Source of the DNA: Pseudomonas sp. F(2018) | GTDB taxonomy: Bacteria > Pseudomonadota > Gammaproteobacteria > Pseudomonadales > Pseudomonadaceae | Assembly (NCBI RefSeq): GCF_005508865.1 | Contig: NZ_SCOM01000001.1 | Span: 434,001-498,000 of the forward strand | Reading direction: 5' to 3' | Length of the DNA stretch: 64,000 nucleotides | Shown here: in pieces, positions 53,852 to 61,494 of the stretch | Numbering within the stretch: the stretch's first letter is position 1 | How the letters are laid out: each line of letters starts with the position of its first letter | Translations under genes and position numbers: made by a program | Notes under the pieces: generated by a model | The model's database searches: none | What the model was told of the DNA's origin: nothing | What the model saw: only the letters and a program-made list of their open reading frames with translations

Positions 53852-54751
53852 GTGAATATATTGACCTTCGACCTCAACCTCCTGCGCGTGCTCGATGCCC
53901 TGCTGCGCGAGCGCAACGTGTCGCGCGCCGCCGAGCGCCTGGCGCTGAGCCAGCCGGCGGTGAGCAATGCGCTGAACCGCCTGCGCGCGCTGCTCGACGA
54001 CCCGCTGCTGGTGCGCGTCGGCCGCGCCATGCAGCCGACGCCACGGGCGCTGGAGCTGGAGGCGCCGATTCGTGCCGCGCTGCGGCAGATCGAGGAGAGC
54101 CTGGGCGAGGGCAGCCACTTCGATCCGGCGCGCAGCCGCCAGCGCTTCACCATCGCCCTCACCGACTACGCCGAAATGCTGCTGATGCCGCGCCTGCTGG
54201 CGCGCCTGGCGGAGCAGGCGCCGGGCATCCGCATCGACGTGCGCCACCTGAGTCCGCGCCTGCCGGCCGAGGCGCTGGAGAAGGGCGAGCTGGACCTGGC
54301 GGTCGGTCGTTTCGAGGCGCTGCCACCGCGCTTCGCCGGCAGCCGCTGGATGAGCGAGACCCTGCAGCTGGTGGCCCGTCGCGACCATCCGCAACTGCGC
54401 GCCGGCCTGGACCTGGACGGCTTTCTGCGCCTGCGCCACCTGTGGGTGCACGGTGGCCAGACCCGTGGCATGGTCGAGCAGTGGCTGGGCGAGCAGGGCC
54501 TGAGCCGCGAGATCGTCTACACCACGCCCAACTACCTGCAGGCCGCGCACATCGCCGCCAGCGGCGACCTGGTGGCGGTGCTGCCGGCGCGCCTGGCGCG
54601 CTACTTCGCCGAGCTGCTGCCGCTGGACCTGTTCGACCTGCCCTTCGACCTGGGCGCCTTCCACCTGCAGATCGTCAGCCTCGACCTGCGCCGCCGCGAC
54701 GTGGCCCTGCAGTGGCTGATCGAGCAGATCCGCGTGCTCGGCGAGAGCTGA
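53852..54751 (+). CDS. LysR-family transcriptional regulator
   Basis: A 299-residue regulator starting at GTG. The HTH is DLNLLRVLDALLRERNVSRAAERLALSQPAVSNALNRLRALLDDPLLVR, close to the NodD/PcaQ-like subgroup, followed by a periplasmic-binding-like effector domain (RFTIALTDYAEMLLMPRLLARLAEQAP). Divergence from the acyl-CoA cluster makes it the likely regulator of that cluster, perhaps through an acyl-CoA or acid ligand. Confidence 0.93.
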   Translation: MNILTFDLNLLRVLDALLRERNVSRAAERLALSQPAVSNALNRLRALLDDPLLVRVGRAMQPTPRALELEAPIRAALRQIEESLGEGSHFDPARSRQRFTIALTDYAEMLLMPRLLARLAEQAPGIRIDVRHLSPRLPAEALEKGELDLAVGRFEALPPRFAGSRWMSETLQLVARRDHPQLRAGLDLDGFLRLRHLWVHGGQTRGMVEQWLGEQGLSREIVYTTPNYLQAAHIAASGDLVAVLPARLARYFAELLPLDLFDLPFDLGAFHLQIVSLDLRRRDVALQWLIEQIRVLGES

Positions 54752-54800: not shown

Positions 54801-54902
54801 CCTTTCCGGAACAACATGGTCATCGAGACCAGAGGCCCTGGGATGGGCCATCCAGAAAACGCTGCCCGCCATGGGCGGCTTTGGCGACCCGGGAGAACAC
54901 TG

Positions 54903-56525
54903 ATGCTGAACCAACTGAGCGTGCGCAGCCGCCTGCTGCTGCTGGCGTTGTTGCCGCTGGCCGTGCTGCTGGGGGTAATGCTGCTGGCGGCATCCAACGC
55001 CGGCCGCCTCAACCAGAGTTTCGAGGCGCTGTTCGTCGATCGCATGCAGCCGATCAGCCAGCTCAAGGAAGTTTCCGACGGCTACGCGGTGAACATGGTC
55101 GACGCCCTGCACAAGTACCGCGCCGGCCTGCTCGACGAGTCGGCCCTGCGGCAGAGCGTGGATGCTGCTCGGCAGCGTGTGGAGCAGGCCTGGCGCACCT
55201 ACACCTCGACCCGCCTGACCGCCGAGGAGAGCGACCGCGTGGAGCGTACCCGGCCGCTGATGGCCAGGGCCGACCTGCTGGTGAGCGAGCTGCTCGGCAC
55301 TGCCGGCGACAGCCTGCGCGGCGAGTCGGCGGAGAGCTTCAACCGGCGCCTGTACACCACCTTCGACCCGCTCAGCGCCGAGCTCGACGGCCTGGTGCGC
55401 CTGCAGCTGAGCGAGGGCGACAAGCTGCACCGCGAAGAAGGCGAAGCCTACAGCTCGATGAAGAGCAGCTTCATCGTCATTGGCCTGGTGGCGCTGGGCT
55501 TGGTGCTGGTGTTCGGCCTGCTGGTCAGCCGTTCGATCATCCGCCCGCTGGAGGCGCTGTGCGCGGTGATCGGCCAGGTGCAGAGCAGTTCCGACCTGAC
55601 CCTGCGTGCCGCCGACCAGGGCGAGCACGAGCTGGCACGGACCGCTCGCGCCTTCAACGCCATGCTCGAGCATTTCCAGCAGCTGATCCGCCACCTGAGC
55701 GACTCCTCTATCCAGCTGGCCGCCGCCTCCGAGGAGATGAGCGCGATCAGCGCCCAGGTCAGCGACGTGGCGTCCAACCAGGGCCAGCAGACCACCATGG
55801 TTGCCACCGCCGTGCATCAGATGAGCGCGGCGATCCAGGAGGTGGCGCAGAACGCCCTGGGCATGTCGCATATCGCCAACGATGCACGCCGCGAAGCCCA
55901 GCAGGGCACGTCGCTGGTGCAGGCCAACCTGGACTCGATCCAGCGCCTGTCGCAGTCGGTGCAGCAGGGCGCCGAGGTGATCAACCGCCTGCACAGCCAG
56001 AGCGACGAGATCGGCAGCGTGCTGGGGGTGATCCAGAGCATCGCCGAGCAGACCAACCTGCTCGCGCTCAACGCGGCCATCGAGGCGGCGCGGGCCGGCG
56101 AGGCCGGGCGTGGTTTCGCCGTGGTGGCCGACGAGGTGCGCAGCCTGGCCAGCAATACGCAGAAGGCCACCGAGTCGATCCGCAAGATGATCGATGCCCT
56201 GCAGGACGGCGCGCGCCAGGCGGTGGGCGCCATGCAGCAGTCCAGCGAGCGGGCGGCGGCCAGCGTCAGCCATGCGCGCGAGTCCGGCGAGGTGCTGCTG
56301 CACATCGCCAACGCCATCGACGGTATTGCCGACGGCAACGTGCAGATCTCCACCGCCACCGAGCAGCAGACCGCGGTGGCCAACGAGATCAGCCAGAACA
56401 TCACCCAGCTCAACGACAGCATCCAGGAAGTGGTCAGTGGCGCTCAGCAGAGCGCCATCGCCAGCCGCGACCTGGCCCAGCTGGCCAGCGGGCAGCAGGG
56501 CCAGGTGCAGCGCTTCCGCGCCTGA
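54903..56525 (+). CDS. Methyl-accepting chemotaxis protein with four-helix-bundle sensor
   Basis: A 540-residue chemoreceptor. Membrane helix about residues 10-32, periplasmic four-helix bundle about 33-190, second helix ([19 protein letters not shown]), HAMP, and cytoplasmic domain with the tip [20 protein letters not shown] and [23 protein letters not shown] precedes the ATG. The ligand is unknown. The protein ends RFRA, without the CheR-docking pentapeptide. Confidence 0.93.
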
Positions 56526-56850: not shown

Positions 56851-57345
56851 ATGGCTATCGCCATCAGTCCGATTGGCAACACGCTCTACGAGCCGCGCGC
56901 ACTGCGCCCGCTCGATGACAACACCTCGCTGGAGGTGCGTAACCGCTTCGACACGCCGCTCAACCCCACCAACACCGAGCGTCTGCAGGATCGTCTGGCA
57001 CTGAATCGCGAACGGGCGGCCGAGCGATTCGCCCGCCAGCAGGAGCTGGCCGAGGAGCGCCGCGAGGTGCTGCGGGAACAGCAGGCCGAGCAGGCGCGGC
57101 AGGCGGCCGAAGAGGCCACCAACAGCCTGCAGGATCGTCTGCGCCAGCAGCAGGTGGAGCGTTTCCTCGAAGCCCGGCAGGTCGATCAGGACCCGAGTAC
57201 CGAGGCCGATCCGCTGACCCCGCAGAACCTCGCGCAGCAGCGGACGGAGGCCAACCAGCTGACCTTTGGCCGGCAGCAGACGGTGACCACGCGGACCGCC
57301 ATCGAGGCGATCACCACCTACCAGGAAACCCGCGACCTGATCTGA
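56851..57345 (+). CDS. Conserved hypothetical charged, helical protein
   Basis: A 164-residue protein without signal or membrane segment. The middle (about residues 45-115) is extremely rich in Glu, Arg, Gln and Ala with heptad-like pattern (ERAAERFARQQELAEERREVLREQQAEQARQAAEEATN), so a long coiled coil is likely. The N-terminus MAIAISPIGNTLYEPRALRPL and C-terminus are low in structure. GGGAGA lies 7 bases before the ATG. I do not recognise the family. Location after a chemoreceptor is the only hint. Confidence 0.75.
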   Translation: MAIAISPIGNTLYEPRALRPLDDNTSLEVRNRFDTPLNPTNTERLQDRLALNRERAAERFARQQELAEERREVLREQQAEQARQAAEEATNSLQDRLRQQQVERFLEARQVDQDPSTEADPLTPQNLAQQRTEANQLTFGRQQTVTTRTAIEAITTYQETRDLI

Positions 57346-57414
57346 TCGGGGCGGCGCTAGCGCCCCCGTTGATCGAGCCGAGCCGGCGCTGATGGCCAGT
57401 GGCCGGCGTCTTCC

Positions 57415-57441
57415 TATACTCCCTCCATCGAGTGATGGAGG
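57415..57441 (+). promoter_or_regulatory. Promoter -10 box and palindrome covering the ribosome site of the cupredoxin gene
   Basis: TATACT (57415-57420) is followed directly by CCTCCATC-GAGT-GATGGAGG (57422-57441), a perfect 8-bp inverted repeat whose right arm contains the GGAGG ribosome site six bases before the ATG. As DNA it could be an operator at the transcription start; as RNA from an upstream start it would hide the ribosome site. The -35 region (ATGGCC) is poor. Confidence 0.5.
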
Positions 57442-57447
57442 TGGCGT

Positions 57448-58092
57448 ATGGGCAGGCGGTACTGGGGGCTGGCGCTGGCGGCGCTGTGCGGTCCCCTGGC
57501 GGCGGCAACCCTGGAAGTCCGGCTGAGCGATACTCAGGGCCAGCCCCTGGCCGACGCCGTCTTATGGGTCGAGCCCGGGCCGCCCCAGCCCGTTGGTGCA
57601 ACGGCGCGGGTCAACCAGCAGAAGCGCCAGTTCGAGCCGTATATCCTGGCGGTGCAGACCGGCACCACGGTCAGCTTCCCCAATGCCGACCCGATCAACC
57701 ACCACGTCTATTCCTTCTCCGCCGCCAAGCGCTTCGAGCTGCGCCTGCAGAAGAGCAGCGACGCGCCGCAGGAAGTGCGCTTCGACAAGCCCGGACTGGT
57801 CACCCTGGGCTGCAATATCCACGACTGGATGCTCGGCTTCGTGCTGGTGCTGGACAGCCCCTGGTTCGCCCAGACCGATGCCCGGGGCCTGGCCCGTATC
57901 GAGTTCGAACCGGCAGCCGGGCAGCGCCTGCATGTGTGGCATCCGCGCATCGCCGACCCTGCCGAGCAGCAGGTGCGGGAGCTCGGCGGTGCGGCGGCAG
58001 TGGCCTGGCAACTGGGCGCGCCGCTCAAGCGCGACCCGCGCCCCAAGGAGCCATCCGGCAAGCCCAAGGGCAAGGGCGGCTACGCGCCATGA
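57448..58092 (+). CDS. Periplasmic cupredoxin-domain protein (methylamine-utilisation-like)
   Basis: A 214-residue exported protein (signal peptide ending LAAAT, about residue 20). It has the cupredoxin copper ligands: His85/86 in NHHVYSF and Cys122, His125, Met128 in GCNIHDWM, the type I copper arrangement. The Lys/Pro-rich C-terminal tail is probably disordered. The annotation 'methylamine utilization' is inherited for the family; no methylamine genes are near. Its stop overlaps the GGDEF/EAL start (ATGA), so both are made together. Confidence 0.85.
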   Translation: MGRRYWGLALAALCGPLAAATLEVRLSDTQGQPLADAVLWVEPGPPQPVGATARVNQQKRQFEPYILAVQTGTTVSFPNADPINHHVYSFSAAKRFELRLQKSSDAPQEVRFDKPGLVTLGCNIHDWMLGFVLVLDSPWFAQTDARGLARIEFEPAAGQRLHVWHPRIADPAEQQVRELGGAAAVAWQLGAPLKRDPRPKEPSGKPKGKGGYAP

Positions 58093-60329
58093 GCCTGCGC
58101 GGCAAGATCCTGGCTTTCTTCCTGCTCCTGCTGGCGGCGCTGATGCTGTTGCTGGCGGGGCTGGTCTATCGCTCCACCTTCGACCACAGCCTGCAGCAGG
58201 TGCAGACCCAGCTGGGCTTCGCCCATCGCGTGCTGGCCAACGAGCTGCAGAGCCGGCGCCAGGCGCAGAGCGCGATGGCCGAGCTGATCGCCAAGGACTT
58301 CACCCTGCTCGGCGAGATCGCCGACCTGGTGGCCAGCCCGCAGCAGGAGGCGCAGTCGCTGTCCGCCGCGCTGGAATCCTTCGCCTCGCGCAGCCAGGCC
58401 GGCTTCGCCCTGGTGCTGGCGCCGGACGGCCTGGTGCTGGCCGGTACCAGCGCCGAGCTGGCCTCGGGCGCACGGCTGCCGTGGAACGGGCTGCTGAACG
58501 AGGCCGAGCCGGACAGTGCCGAGCGCCTGGTGGTGCTGGATGGCCGCGTGTTGCACGTCAACCTGACGCCGATCTTCGCCCCGCGCCCGAACCTGATGGG
58601 CTGGCTGCTGATGGCCTTCGAGCTGGGCGGCAGCCACCTGCCGGACAGCCAGGAGGTGTTCCGCTTCCCGTTGCAGGGCCTGGAACAGGTGGCCCTGCGC
58701 GCGCCGCTGGCGGGCACCGACGGCGACCTGCAGGTGCTGCTGATGCGCTCGCTGTCCGCCGAGCTGGCCCATTACCAACCGCTGCAGTGGCAGCTGATGC
58801 TGATCTTCGCCGCCGCCCTGGTGCTGGCCGGGCTCGGCGCCCTGTGGATCGCCAACACCGTCAGCCGGCCGCTGGCGCAGATGGTGGAAAACGTGCGGCG
58901 CATCGCCGGCGGCGACTACCAGGCCAGTGTGGCGACCGCCGCCGGTGGCGAGGTCGGCCTGCTGGCCCACGAGTTCGCCGCCATGCAGCGCGGTATCGCC
59001 GAGCGCGAGGAGACCATCGGCTTCCTCGCCTACCGTGATCCGCTGACCGAGCTGGCCAACCGCAACCGCTTCGTTGCCGAGCTGCAGCAGGCGCTGTTGC
59101 AATGCCAGCCTGGCGAGGGCGTGGCGGTGCTGCTGATGGACCTTGACAACTTCAAGGACCTCAACGACACCCTCGGCCACGAGGCCGGCGACCAGCTGCT
59201 GCGTCTGCTCGCCGGGCGCCTGCAGGAGCTGCTGCGCGGCGGCGAGCAACTGGCGCGCCTGGGCGGCGACGAGTTTGCCGTGCTGGTGCCGCATTGCCAT
59301 CCGGGCCAGGTGGTGCCCACCGCCGAGCACTATCGCGCGGCCCTGCAGCAACCGTTCGTGGTGCGTGGCATCAGCATGACGCTCAATGCCACCCTCGGCA
59401 TCGCCCTGCATCCGGACCATGGCGAGAGCGCCGGCAGCCTGCTGCAGCACGCCGAGGTGGCGATGTACTGGGGCAAGGCGCAGCGCTCGCCCTATGCGCT
59501 GTACCGTCCGGAACTGGACCGCCACAGCCTGGTGCGCCTGGCCCTGATGAGCGAACTGAAGAGCGCGGTGGAGGAGGGCCAGCTGAGCCTGTACTTCCAG
59601 CCCAAGCTGGATATCCGCGCGCGGCGCCTGCTCGGTGTGGAATGCCTGGTGCGCTGGATCCATCCGGTGCACGGCTTCGTCCCGCCGGACGAGTTCATTC
59701 CCCTGGCCGAGCAGACCGGCAATGTCTGCGCGCTGACCCGCTGGGTGGTGCGCACGGCCCTGGCGCAGAGCCGCGCCTGGCACGACCAGGGCCTGGGCCT
59801 GGGCCTGAAGACCGCGATCAACGTCTCCGCCCTCGACCTGGCCGACCCCGGCTTCGCCGGTTACATCGCCGCCCAGTTGGCCGAACACCAGGTGCAGCCG
59901 GGCAGTCTCGTCGTGGAGATCACCGAGAGCGCGGTGATGGCCGATCCCGAGCAGGCCCTGGGGCAGCTGCAGCAGCTGTGCGAGCTGGGCGTGCGCCTGT
60001 CGATCGACGACTACGGTACCGGCTACTCCAGCATGGCCCAGCTCAAGCGCCTGCCGGTGCACGAGCTGAAGATCGACAAGTCCTTCGTCCAGGACCTGCT
60101 GAGCAACCCGGACGACGACATCATCGTCCGCTCCACCGTCGAGCTCGGTCACAACATGGGCCTGCGCGTGGTGGCCGAAGGGGTGGAGACCGACGCCGTG
60201 CTGCAGCGCCTGGACCAGCTCGGCTGCGATATCGCCCAGGGCTACCTGCTGAGCAAACCGCTGGCGCCCCAGGCCTTCGCCGAATGGCTGGCGCAGACCC
60301 ACTGGGGCCTGCCGCGTTTGTCTGCATGA
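58089..60329 (+). CDS. Membrane GGDEF/EAL protein coupled to a cupredoxin
   Basis: A 746-residue protein: membrane helix about residues 8-27, periplasmic sensor about 28-235, second helix (LMLIFAAALVLAGLGALWIAN), HAMP, GGDEF domain with intact GGDEF (392-396), and a C-terminal EAL domain. The EAL signature reads ECL (518-520), keeping the metal-binding Glu; downstream motifs NVSA, ITESAV, DDYGTGYSS, KIDKSF, EGVET and QGYLLSKPL are kept. The protein may thus both make and degrade c-di-GMP. No I-site RxxD is visible before GGDEF (GGEQLARLGGDEF). The upstream cupredoxin could be its signal donor. Confidence 0.9.
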   Translation: MSLRGKILAFFLLLLAALMLLLAGLVYRSTFDHSLQQVQTQLGFAHRVLANELQSRRQAQSAMAELIAKDFTLLGEIADLVASPQQEAQSLSAALESFASRSQAGFALVLAPDGLVLAGTSAELASGARLPWNGLLNEAEPDSAERLVVLDGRVLHVNLTPIFAPRPNLMGWLLMAFELGGSHLPDSQEVFRFPLQGLEQVALRAPLAGTDGDLQVLLMRSLSAELAHYQPLQWQLMLIFAAALVLAGLGALWIANTVSRPLAQMVENVRRIAGGDYQASVATAAGGEVGLLAHEFAAMQRGIAEREETIGFLAYRDPLTELANRNRFVAELQQALLQCQPGEGVAVLLMDLDNFKDLNDTLGHEAGDQLLRLLAGRLQELLRGGEQLARLGGDEFAVLVPHCHPGQVVPTAEHYRAALQQPFVVRGISMTLNATLGIALHPDHGESAGSLLQHAEVAMYWGKAQRSPYALYRPELDRHSLVRLALMSELKSAVEEGQLSLYFQPKLDIRARRLLGVECLVRWIHPVHGFVPPDEFIPLAEQTGNVCALTRWVVRTALAQSRAWHDQGLGLGLKTAINVSALDLADPGFAGYIAAQLAEHQVQPGSLVVEITESAVMADPEQALGQLQQLCELGVRLSIDDYGTGYSSMAQLKRLPVHELKIDKSFVQDLLSNPDDDIIVRSTVELGHNMGLRVVAEGVETDAVLQRLDQLGCDIAQGYLLSKPLAPQAFAEWLAQTHWGLPRLSA

Positions 60330-60427
60330 GGGGCGGCAAAGCCAGCGCTTTGGCCGGCTGGGCGACTTTCGCGAACGCACGCCCGGCGTAGGCTGCTGGC
60401 ACAACAATAAGCTCAAGGACTCCGCGC

Positions 60428-61494
60428 ATGCGCAAGGCATTGCTACTCATCGTGCTGGCCGGCCTCGGCTATTTGCTGTTCTGGCCCACAACGCTGCAGC
60501 CGCGGGCCTGGCAGCCCGGCCCGGTGCCCAGGGCCGAGGGCGTGTGGGCTGTTAATACTCGGCTGGATGGCGCCGTGCTGGAGCAGTCCGGCCTGGCCGG
60601 GCCGGATACTGTGGTAGTGGATGACCAGGGTCGGCGTTACAGCGGAATCGGTGACGGGCGCATCCTGCGCTGGCAGGCCGGCCAGCCCGTGCAGACCTTC
60701 GTCACTCTCGACGGTCGCCCGGTGGGCATGAACTTCGGCCCGGACGGCAGCCTGTACGCGGCGGACGAGGCCAATGCCAAGGTCTGGCGCATCACGCCCG
60801 ACGGCCAGGCGCAGGTGCTGGTGCAGAGCGATGCGCGGCAGCGCTTCACCTTCCTCAACGATGTGTTCGTGGCTCGCGACGGCCGCCTGTTCTTTACCGA
60901 GGCCTCCAGCCGCTGGGGCCTGGCCGACAACAAGCGCGCGCTGCTGGAGCACAGGGGTGACGGCGGTGTGTTCGTGCGTGACCCGGACGGGCGCATCGAG
61001 CGGGTGATGGATGGCCTGCAGTTCGCCAACGGCGTGGTGCTCAGTCCGGACGAGTCCTACCTGCTGGTCGCCGAGACTGGCGCCTATCGCATCACGCGCC
61101 TGTGGATACGGGGCCCGCGCAGCGGCCAGCGCGAGGTGCTGGTGGACAACCTGCCGGGCTTCCCCGGCGATCTCTCCGTCGCCCCGGATGGCAGTTACTG
61201 GTGCTCGTTCTTCTCGCCGCGCAAGGCCGTGCTCGATGCCCTGGGGCCCTGGCCGTTCCTGCGCAAGGTCGCCGCGCGCCTGCCGCCGGCGCTGCTGGCG
61301 CGGCCCAGCCGCTATCCCCACGTGTTCCGTTTCGACGGCGAGGGTCGTGTGCTGGAAAGCCTGCAGGCCTCGCCGGACAGCGCGCTGCCCAGCTTCAGCA
61401 GTGTGGTGCAGGTGGGCGACGAACTGCTGCTCGGCACGCCCGGCGGAGTAGGCGAGATCGATGCGGATGGGGCGTATCGGGTCAGCCTGTCGCG

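Follow-up and report, generated by a model that had tools for sequence, protein, structure and literature searches.

A cupredoxin gene recurrently paired with a Cache-type receptor gene for c-di-GMP turnover: a candidate copper or redox sensing unit in Pseudomonas and its relatives

The gene pair and its domains

The window, i.e., the whole analyzed stretch of 64,000 nucleotides from Pseudomonas sp. F(2018), contains two reading frames on the forward strand that encode a cupredoxin and a membrane GGDEF/EAL receptor, joined by an ATGA overlap, in agreement with the initial annotation. The features used in this study are the following (window positions, + strand):

57393..57420, +, sigma-70-like promoter match (9 of 12) just 5' of the pair, by consensus match only
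57448..58092, +, cupredoxin, exported, 214 aa (P0001), from the reading frame and fold model, with a signal-peptide-like N-terminus by eye
57700..57702, +, codon of His85, the first copper ligand, invariant and aligned to a solved cupredoxin
57811..57831, +, ligand loop Cys122-x2-His125-x2-Met128, each ligand invariant, with a spacing that we take to be of the amicyanin type
58089..58092, +, ATGA start/stop overlap of the cupredoxin and receptor genes, from the sequence
58089..60329, +, membrane receptor HAMP-GGDEF-EAL, 746 aa (P0002), from the reading frame and Pfam
58176..58793 (limits approximate), +, periplasmic sensor, Cache-type and dCache_3-like, shortened in the window copy, from alignment, Pfam matches of relatives and model
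58620..58632, +, site of ~41 missing sensor residues, compared to orthologues L092, L095, L096 and L099, all of which have them
58845..58994, +, HAMP domain, residues 253-302 (Pfam, 35.3 bits against a cut-off of 25)
59028..59486, +, GGDEF domain, residues 314-466 (Pfam, above cut-off)
59262-59276, +, GGDEF motif, residue 392 (exact sequence)
59553..60260, +, EAL domain, residues 489-724 (Pfam, above cut-off; catalytic residues)

The promoter match is the only one of its kind in 57200-60600, compared to a mean of 0.1 in 50 shuffles. The four window neighbours scanned encode a LysR regulator, a chemoreceptor, a 164-aa product and an SMP-30-like protein.

The AlphaFold2 model of the cupredoxin (mean pLDDT 88.9) is a beta-sandwich of the plastocyanin/azurin kind that resembles pseudoazurin, amicyanin and plastocyanin among the Foldseek matches listed (E 1.5e-6 to 4.1e-5), and the protein has the His, Cys, His, Met ligand set of type 1 copper sites. 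In an alignment of 142 distinct rows, His85, Cys122, His125 and Met128 are each found in 142/142. These are the ligands originally proposed, except that His86 had been offered beside His85 and has to be dropped, because position 86 is His in only 107 rows and otherwise Gln (34 rows) or Ser (1 row). Copper binding by this protein is supported by the invariant ligands together with the predicted fold. Pfam Cupredoxin_1 matches the window protein with 17.5 bits, below its cut-off of 27, and the NCBIfam scores are 15.6 bits for amicyanin (equivalog cut-off 110.2) and 15.9 bits for pseudoazurin (cut-off 109.85); the fold and ligand set are common to all three proteins, whereas the window cupredoxin has additional N- and C-terminal parts. 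The database name of such cupredoxins is presumably methylamine-related; a methylamine role was set aside, since we found no relevant literature joining methylamine utilization with GGDEF or c-di-GMP.

A periplasmic sensor on the c-di-GMP enzyme had been proposed as well, and it is probably Cache-type, judged from the dCache_3 matches of relatives and the structure model. The window sensor has no match to Pfam dCache_3, whereas among the 36 other sequences in alignment A2, 32 have a match at E 0.01 and 4 do not; at E 0.001 L043 and L059 show no match, and orthologue L092 scores 23.7 bits against a cut-off of 25.7. In a structure search, the structure model of the sensor resembled Cache/PAS-like sensors such as DctB, CitA and PctA. 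At the gap, the window retains 13 residues, the shortest segment in 105 receptor rows (the next are 30-34, and 94 rows have 50-59); a sensor truncated in this way could be unresponsive. The three top matches of the structure model were integrative models of other membrane receptors.

In the receptor alignment (105 rows; L122, for which no start codon was found, was left out), each EAL catalytic position is kept in 104 or 105 rows, whereas the GGDEF motif is exact in only 27. The conserved EAL and the mostly degenerate GGDEF suggest that the likely output of the family is c-di-GMP breakdown. The window receptor has E518, N578, E610, D640, D641, K661 and E697, with 9/9 positions checked intact (their catalytic roles are assumed to be those in EAL enzymes), and its GG[DE]EF motif is intact too; it probably breaks c-di-GMP down and may also synthesize it. 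Judged from sequence, the pair consists of a predicted exported protein with a complete type 1 copper ligand set and a co-encoded Cache-HAMP-GGDEF-EAL receptor with an intact EAL site.

Pairing across genomes and the four-gene operon

An EAL receptor lies directly downstream of 105 of 141 related cupredoxin genes, and 104 of these 105 receptors are recognized by the sensor model. At 11 further loci, the gene directly downstream encodes a Cache-type receptor with another output or none (nine class III nucleotide cyclases, one histidine kinase and one without output), and 7 of the 141 have no partner within the stretch, ~5 kb on each side (in L055, the sequence stops 1.7 kb downstream). No ORF in the stretches searched was matched by both the cupredoxin and the sensor models, i.e., there was no sign of a fusion protein; G418, G331 and G385 have long frames that were considered as fusions, but these contain the cupredoxin and lack the sensor.

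Co-occurrence was counted in two samples, with a sensor model built from cupredoxin neighbours and without correction for relatedness: in the order (194 genomes), both genes are present in 55, the cupredoxin alone in 1, the sensor alone in 2 and neither in 136, and the corresponding numbers among 349 genomes of the phylum are 42, 5, 1 and 301. Weaker matches were dropped (sensors with E above 1e-40 in the order, matches with E above 1e-20 in the phylum), and where one gene had been split over two rows (G000:C2, G093), its second half was left out; G142, with a weak sensor adjoining a weak cupredoxin, was counted as neither, G083, with receptor fragments, as cupredoxin only, and the G036 cupredoxin gene is in these counts and outside the 141. 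Counted from the sensor side, the 59 strong genes of the order sample include 45 with a cupredoxin gene directly upstream and 4 more with one within 4 kb; in the phylum sample, the figures are 39 and 3 of 49. The pairing is more than chance, and it persists despite changed gene order and changed output domain. Sequence comparison ties the two families together across genomes, with an output domain that appears exchangeable. A survey of the gene pairing had been suggested at the outset, and its failure to find conservation named as refuting; the pairing proved to be widely conserved.

The commonest unit contains the cupredoxin, the receptor, the barrel-like DUF3034 protein and a truncated-haemoglobin lipoprotein (Bac_globin); DUF3034 and globin are present at 83 of the 141 distinct loci. 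A complete operon of this kind is found in the window's own genome at C3 (L032). The DUF3034, second-barrel and globin models have no match in the window, and the window pair is a paralogue of that operon, without DUF3034 and globin and with the intact GGDEF motif. The initial annotation was right about the pair; it lacked the four-gene system, the paralogous operon, the missing piece of the sensor and the EAL bias of the family.

A cupredoxin and a receptor, without DUF3034, globin or a second barrel in the stretch, make up 33 loci, including all nine cyclase loci and the eight window-type loci, although the stretches of L045, L131 and L163 extend only 1.8-3.0 kb beyond the cupredoxin; in L073, L075 and L087, DUF3034 is ~7-8 kb downstream. 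DUF3034 is present in 8/8 genomes from which the window-type loci (L092-L099) come. The ATGA overlap is found in 6/6 window-type orthologues with touching genes (L092, L095-L099), the pair is split by genes on the other strand in L093 and L094, and the GGDEF motif is exact in 7/7 receptor rows of the window clade. In the genus sample, window-type genes occur in only 4 of 149 genomes, one of which (G645) has no DUF3034 match.

A link to denitrification was considered and rejected: cytochrome d1 (PF02239 matches with E below 1e-60, counted by hand) was found in 8 of the 56 genomes that have a strong cupredoxin match and in 16 of 138 others, i.e., there is no association, and the window's genome has no PF02239 match.

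Copper or redox control and competing explanations

We consider that these sequence data are best explained by a unit of periplasmic protein plus receptor, in which copper or redox control is exerted by contact between the cupredoxin and the sensor; we would give this reading an even chance. The copper loading or the Cu(I)/Cu(II) state would set the form of the cupredoxin, which in that form would dock on the sensor, and docking, through HAMP, would alter c-di-GMP breakdown and, in the window, possibly synthesis too. We thus infer that the cupredoxin may control c-di-GMP turnover. In the full operon, the truncated-globin lipoprotein, near the DUF3034 protein, would be the source of the redox input or its recipient. 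We regard the window pair as a probable duplicated branch of the full system, retuned by partial sensor loss and GGDEF retention; it may depend on the DUF3034 and globin genes that the complete operon supplies from another part of the genome.

Co-evolution was analyzed using 53 of the 105 rows, kept after removal of close ones. Cupredoxin distances correlate with those of the sensor (r 0.65), GGDEF (0.70) and EAL (0.65), and the partial correlations are 0.416 for EAL versus 0.415 for the sensor, and 0.487 for GGDEF versus 0.356 for the sensor. The cupredoxin-sensor partial correlation exceeds all 500 permutations, yet it is no higher than that of EAL. The cupredoxin thus co-varies with the receptor gene as a whole, with no preference for the sensor; therefore, co-evolution was not used as evidence of contact.

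The failure of this test to favour sensor contact agrees with another explanation, possible in our judgment although we doubt it, that the cupredoxin is an electron carrier of an envelope DUF3034-globin redox pathway, while the co-regulated receptor senses a small molecule through its Cache domain and the two proteins never touch. Cache domains usually bind small ligands, and some loci separate the redox genes from the receptor: DUF3034 and globin are beside the cupredoxin, with no receptor nearby, in L063, L064, L068 and L080 (a sensor gene is elsewhere in these genomes) and in G211 (L220; no sensor match in the genome), they are alone in L227, and in L228, L229 and L231 a divergent double cupredoxin lies near them, along with FMN_bind-like and PepSY_TM proteins (from Pfam, in L229 only). 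Conversely, 33 loci have the cupredoxin and receptor without these partners in the stretch, and the cupredoxin and receptor remain the constant pair while outputs vary.

A role of the cupredoxin as a copper store or chaperone, with the linked enzyme lowering c-di-GMP at high copper in a copper-stress response, would suit an exported protein with a complete copper site; we regard it as improbable, considering that no known copper gene is among the four window neighbours scanned and that the commonest companions are DUF3034 and globin. For the window pair itself, it is conceivable, albeit unlikely, that it is a decaying duplicate, its receptor locked in one state by partial sensor loss and its cupredoxin gene a passenger. 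The exceptionally short sensor segment and the rarity of window-type genes in the genus sample are in line with decay, whereas the open state of both frames, the retention of all ligands and EAL residues, the exact GGDEF motif throughout the window clade and the ATGA overlap in every touching orthologue are not.

Returning to control by contact, the recurrent pairing, often with a barrel-like protein and a secreted haemoglobin, points to an undescribed copper/redox sensing system. A wider version, which we offer only tentatively, is a widespread, undescribed envelope redox system, in which the exported truncated haemoglobin and the DUF3034 outer-membrane protein would pass electrons or a gas signal to and from the blue-copper protein, and the Cache receptor would read its copper state and pass it on to c-di-GMP breakdown or, with exchanged outputs, to cyclic-nucleotide or phosphorelay signalling.

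Relation to known systems and significance

Titles and the beginnings of abstracts found by our searches of the open-licence literature (including PMC8694187 and PMC3770913) contained no description of a cupredoxin-receptor system. Sensors of the dCache_3 family occur in histidine kinases, chemoreceptors and c-di-GMP enzymes and, in a few cases, in nucleotide cyclases, and the portion of the source that we used makes no mention of a cupredoxin partner (PMC4822843); the window sensor further differs from these receptors in being shortened and having no Pfam match. In YfiB-YfiR-YfiN of P. aeruginosa, according to the portion used of the source, an outer-membrane protein (YfiB, an OmpA/Pal-like lipoprotein) and a small periplasmic protein control a co-encoded membrane c-di-GMP enzyme, the diguanylate cyclase YfiN (PMC2837407). 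The likeness is in the co-encoding of a periplasmic protein with a membrane c-di-GMP enzyme, whereas here EAL would dominate the output, a copper site is present in the periplasmic partner, and globin and DUF3034 are additional members of the full operon. A module of the YfiBNR type was not found: the periplasmic protein matches only Cupredoxin_1 at E 0.1 in Pfam, and the operon partners are DUF3034 and Bac_globin. YfiR is not known to be a cupredoxin.

Another gene pair of a periplasmic protein and a membrane GGDEF-EAL receptor is NspS-MbaA of Vibrio cholerae; NspS, however, is a solute-binding protein for polyamines and is not known to be a metalloprotein. Copper-based input to GGDEF-EAL enzymes has been proposed for the MHYT-domain proteins MucR and NbdA. 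The proposed metal site of those enzymes is within their own membrane domain, whereas the copper site here is in a separate exported protein.

To our knowledge, only a minority of c-di-GMP enzymes have a known input signal. In the present system, the partner gene suggests what the receptor may receive: it encodes a copper protein, joined in the full operon by a haemoglobin. If this is true, c-di-GMP-controlled behaviour, such as biofilm formation and motility, would be linked to redox or gas conditions in the cell envelope, and DUF3034, secreted truncated globins and this group of cupredoxins would acquire a role.

Conservation of the cupredoxin–receptor pair

The initial annotation proposed translational coupling of a cupredoxin to a membrane GGDEF/EAL protein, and the gene overlap behind this proposal was confirmed: the cupredoxin stop codon and the receptor start codon share ATGA in the window (G000:C2:434001-498000), and the overlap is kept in all six window-type orthologues whose two genes touch.

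Genes of the window pair
57448-58092: cupredoxin gene, exported 214-aa product
58089-60329: receptor gene, 746-aa product

Directly 5' of the pair is a 164-aa gene (56851-57345) with no Pfam match; two genes upstream of the pair is a chemoreceptor (4HB/TarH sensor, HAMP, MCPsignal; 54816-56525), and a LysR-type regulator gene (53852-54751) adjoins it.

The order sample (194 genomes) contained 63 cupredoxin genes at E <1e-25, 61 of which fall in 60 fetched stretches; the remaining two belong to the window and to genome G036. Further relatives were taken from named genomes (the best 80 of at least 530), among which the nearest are mostly from Pseudomonas. A direct partner was defined as an EAL receptor on the same strand, matching the window receptor at E <1e-60. 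Such a receptor lies directly downstream of 105 of 141 cupredoxin genes, bearing out the conserved pairing for which the initial annotation had suggested a survey. The sensor model built from these receptors recognises 104 of the 105. The exception is locus L122: the model does not recognise the EAL protein encoded downstream of its cupredoxin, and a different sensor gene is found on the upstream side.

Nine of the 141 genes are paired with a HAMP receptor whose terminal output is a class III nucleotide cyclase (loci L039, L042, L043, L044, L045, L059, L131, L148, L163); for one the output is a histidine kinase (L171), and one has a receptor without output (L145); Pfam confirms all nine cyclases and the kinase. 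In sequence terms, outputs are thus exchanged beside a constant cupredoxin. dCache_3 is matched at E 0.001 by nine of these 11 receptors, two of which (L145, L163) score under its cut-off, and is not matched by those of L043 and L059. At L145:1984-2883 the cupredoxin is followed by a membrane protein of dCache type that carries no output domain.

Elsewhere, other genes split cupredoxin from receptor (L093, L094), the two are divergent (L089-L091, 3/141), receptor fragments accompany the cupredoxin (L086), or the receptor comes after a barrel gene (L051) or upstream of the cupredoxin (L164). A barrel gene without a direct receptor accompanies 10 of the 141 (L036, one of two copies, L061, L063, L064, L068, L080, L129, L139, L147, L167), and for seven (L047, L049, L055, L057, L065, L066, L078) no partner was found in the fetched stretches. 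Two same-orientation receptors flank one cupredoxin, followed by DUF3034, in L121, L149, L161, L162, L170, L223 and L224.

We also performed the reverse test, using the sensor model from the alignment of receptor sensors (A2) and taking as strong those matches with E <1e-40 in the 194 order genomes and E <1e-20 in the 349 phylum genomes. In this test, which is partly circular because the model was built from cupredoxin neighbours, a cupredoxin is directly upstream of 45 of the 59 strong sensor genes in the order sample (within 4 kb of 4 more) and of 39/49 in the phylum sample (within 4 kb of 3 more).

Genomes with each gene (weaker matches omitted; Fisher p uncorrected for relatedness)
Order sample (n=194): both 55, cupredoxin only 1, sensor only 2, neither 136; p = 8e-45
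Phylum sample (n=349): both 42, cupredoxin only 5, sensor only 1, neither 301; p = 2e-47

The 38 positive phylum-sample genomes outside the order-sample positives comprise 32 with both genes, 5 with the cupredoxin only and 1 with the sensor only. Both genes are present and unlinked in seven genomes of genus g28 and in G003 (order sample), and in G207 and G307 (phylum sample). Close relatives of the window's genome are sparse in the order sample, where a cupredoxin match was found in none of three other genomes of the genus and none of four others of the family; the genus sample has such a match in 52 of its 149 genomes.

Copper site, sensor and output

The window cupredoxin scores 17.5 bits against Pfam Cupredoxin_1, under the 27-bit cut-off, and matches solved cupredoxins weakly (best E 0.0017); its predicted model (pLDDT 88.9) resembles pseudoazurin, amicyanin and plastocyanin. 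Among the ligands named in the initial annotation (His85/86, Cys122, His125, Met128), His85, Cys122, His125 and Met128 never vary across an alignment of 142 distinct rows, made up of the window and 141 relatives. Position 86 did not hold up, with His in 107 rows, Gln in 34 and Ser in 1.

HAMP, GGDEF and EAL of the window receptor exceed Pfam cut-offs. The sensor appears to be of Cache type: besides the window, A2 has 36 members, 32 of which match dCache_3, and the window receptor model (pLDDT 86.0, pTM 0.65) matches the DctB, CitA and PctA sensors, although three integrative models of other membrane receptors rank higher. The window sensor is missing about 41 residues that orthologues L092, L095, L096 and L099 have; the segment concerned has 13 residues in the window versus 50-59 in 94/105 rows and at least 30 in all others.

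In the receptor alignment (105 rows, the window and 104 relatives; L122 was left out, its start codon not having been found), E518, E613 and Q717 are present in every row, and N578, E610, D640, D641, K661 and E697 each in 104. The exact GGDEF motif is found in 27 rows: 8/76 with the globin operon, 3/7 with the second barrel family, 9/15 with neither, and 7/7 of the window clade. The retained EAL residues and the scarcity of exact GGDEF suggest that the output of the family is probably c-di-GMP breakdown; since the motif is exact throughout the window clade, synthesis is possible there.

The larger operon and the window paralogue

The commonest gene order is cupredoxin, receptor, DUF3034, globin (69/145 rows, with models run on the fetched stretches). 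DUF3034 (PF11231) appears outer-membrane barrel-like, judging the sequence by eye. The fourth gene, scanned in L032, is a Bac_globin (39.7 bits, cut-off 21). The 86 globin rows, 83 of which are distinct loci, have His93, Phe58 and cysteines 75 and 82 throughout, Cys15 in 83 and a lipobox-like pattern in 72; we take Cys15 to be lipoprotein-type and His93 haem-type. DUF3034 occurs in 83 of 141 distinct loci, with globin in the same 83. A second barrel-like family (~410-455 aa) stands in for DUF3034 in some loci (beside the cupredoxin at L061:5505-6737, L139:5599-6837, L051 and L036); of two members scanned, one matches BBP2 weakly and the other has no match.

DUF3034 is present in 41 of the 194 order genomes, 36 of which have a strong cupredoxin; it also adjoins globin in the remaining five (G023, G101, G123, G171, G192). 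In three of these five (L228, L229, L231), DUF3034 and globin lie near a divergent double cupredoxin, without a dCache receptor, and near FMN_bind-like and PepSY_TM proteins (the domain scan covers L229, where the FMN_bind-like protein scores 21.7 bits, cut-off 22). This set is possibly a different envelope redox chain, and its composition points to envelope redox chemistry.

The window's genome carries a complete operon at C3 (L032: cupredoxin, EAL receptor, DUF3034, globin), whose cupredoxin is 49% identical to that of the window.

Genes following the second pair
L032:8352-9631 (G000:C3): DUF3034 and truncated-globin lipoprotein genes

DUF3034 and globin models had no match within the window. 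The window clade is small, with a copy at ≥66% identity in 4/149 genus-sample genomes, including the window's own; among these, DUF3034 is found in G000, G632 and G640 and not in G645. DUF3034 is present in all eight genomes of the window-type loci L092-L099, with a partial match in G523; these eight overlap with the four genus-sample genomes (DUF3034 coordinates are identical in G640 and the genome of L092). Two opposite-strand genes split cupredoxin and receptor at L093:5636-8291, one for a CHASE2 cyclase and the other short and, by eye, FecR-like; the L094 pair is split at the same distance.

Proposed mechanism and known systems

Gene linkage, conserved copper ligands and a conserved EAL site are established at the sequence level. 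The cupredoxin would touch the receptor sensor, the message would be copper or redox state, and globin and DUF3034 may feed it. The co-evolution test did not separate the sensor from EAL (leaning slightly to GGDEF) and no cupredoxin-receptor fusion was found in the stretches searched, so that neither line directly supports the contact. A link to denitrification was considered and rejected, no association being found.

NspS-MbaA is among the closest to the full operon in layout. The same is true of YfiBNR (PMC2837407). The parts differ in both cases, and the full operon belongs to neither. We found no description of the cupredoxin-receptor system in the open-licence papers searched. Its general type is familiar, a second-messenger receptor in the membrane that is paired with a periplasmic protein; in this case the periplasmic partner is a predicted copper protein, and a haemoglobin often accompanies the two.
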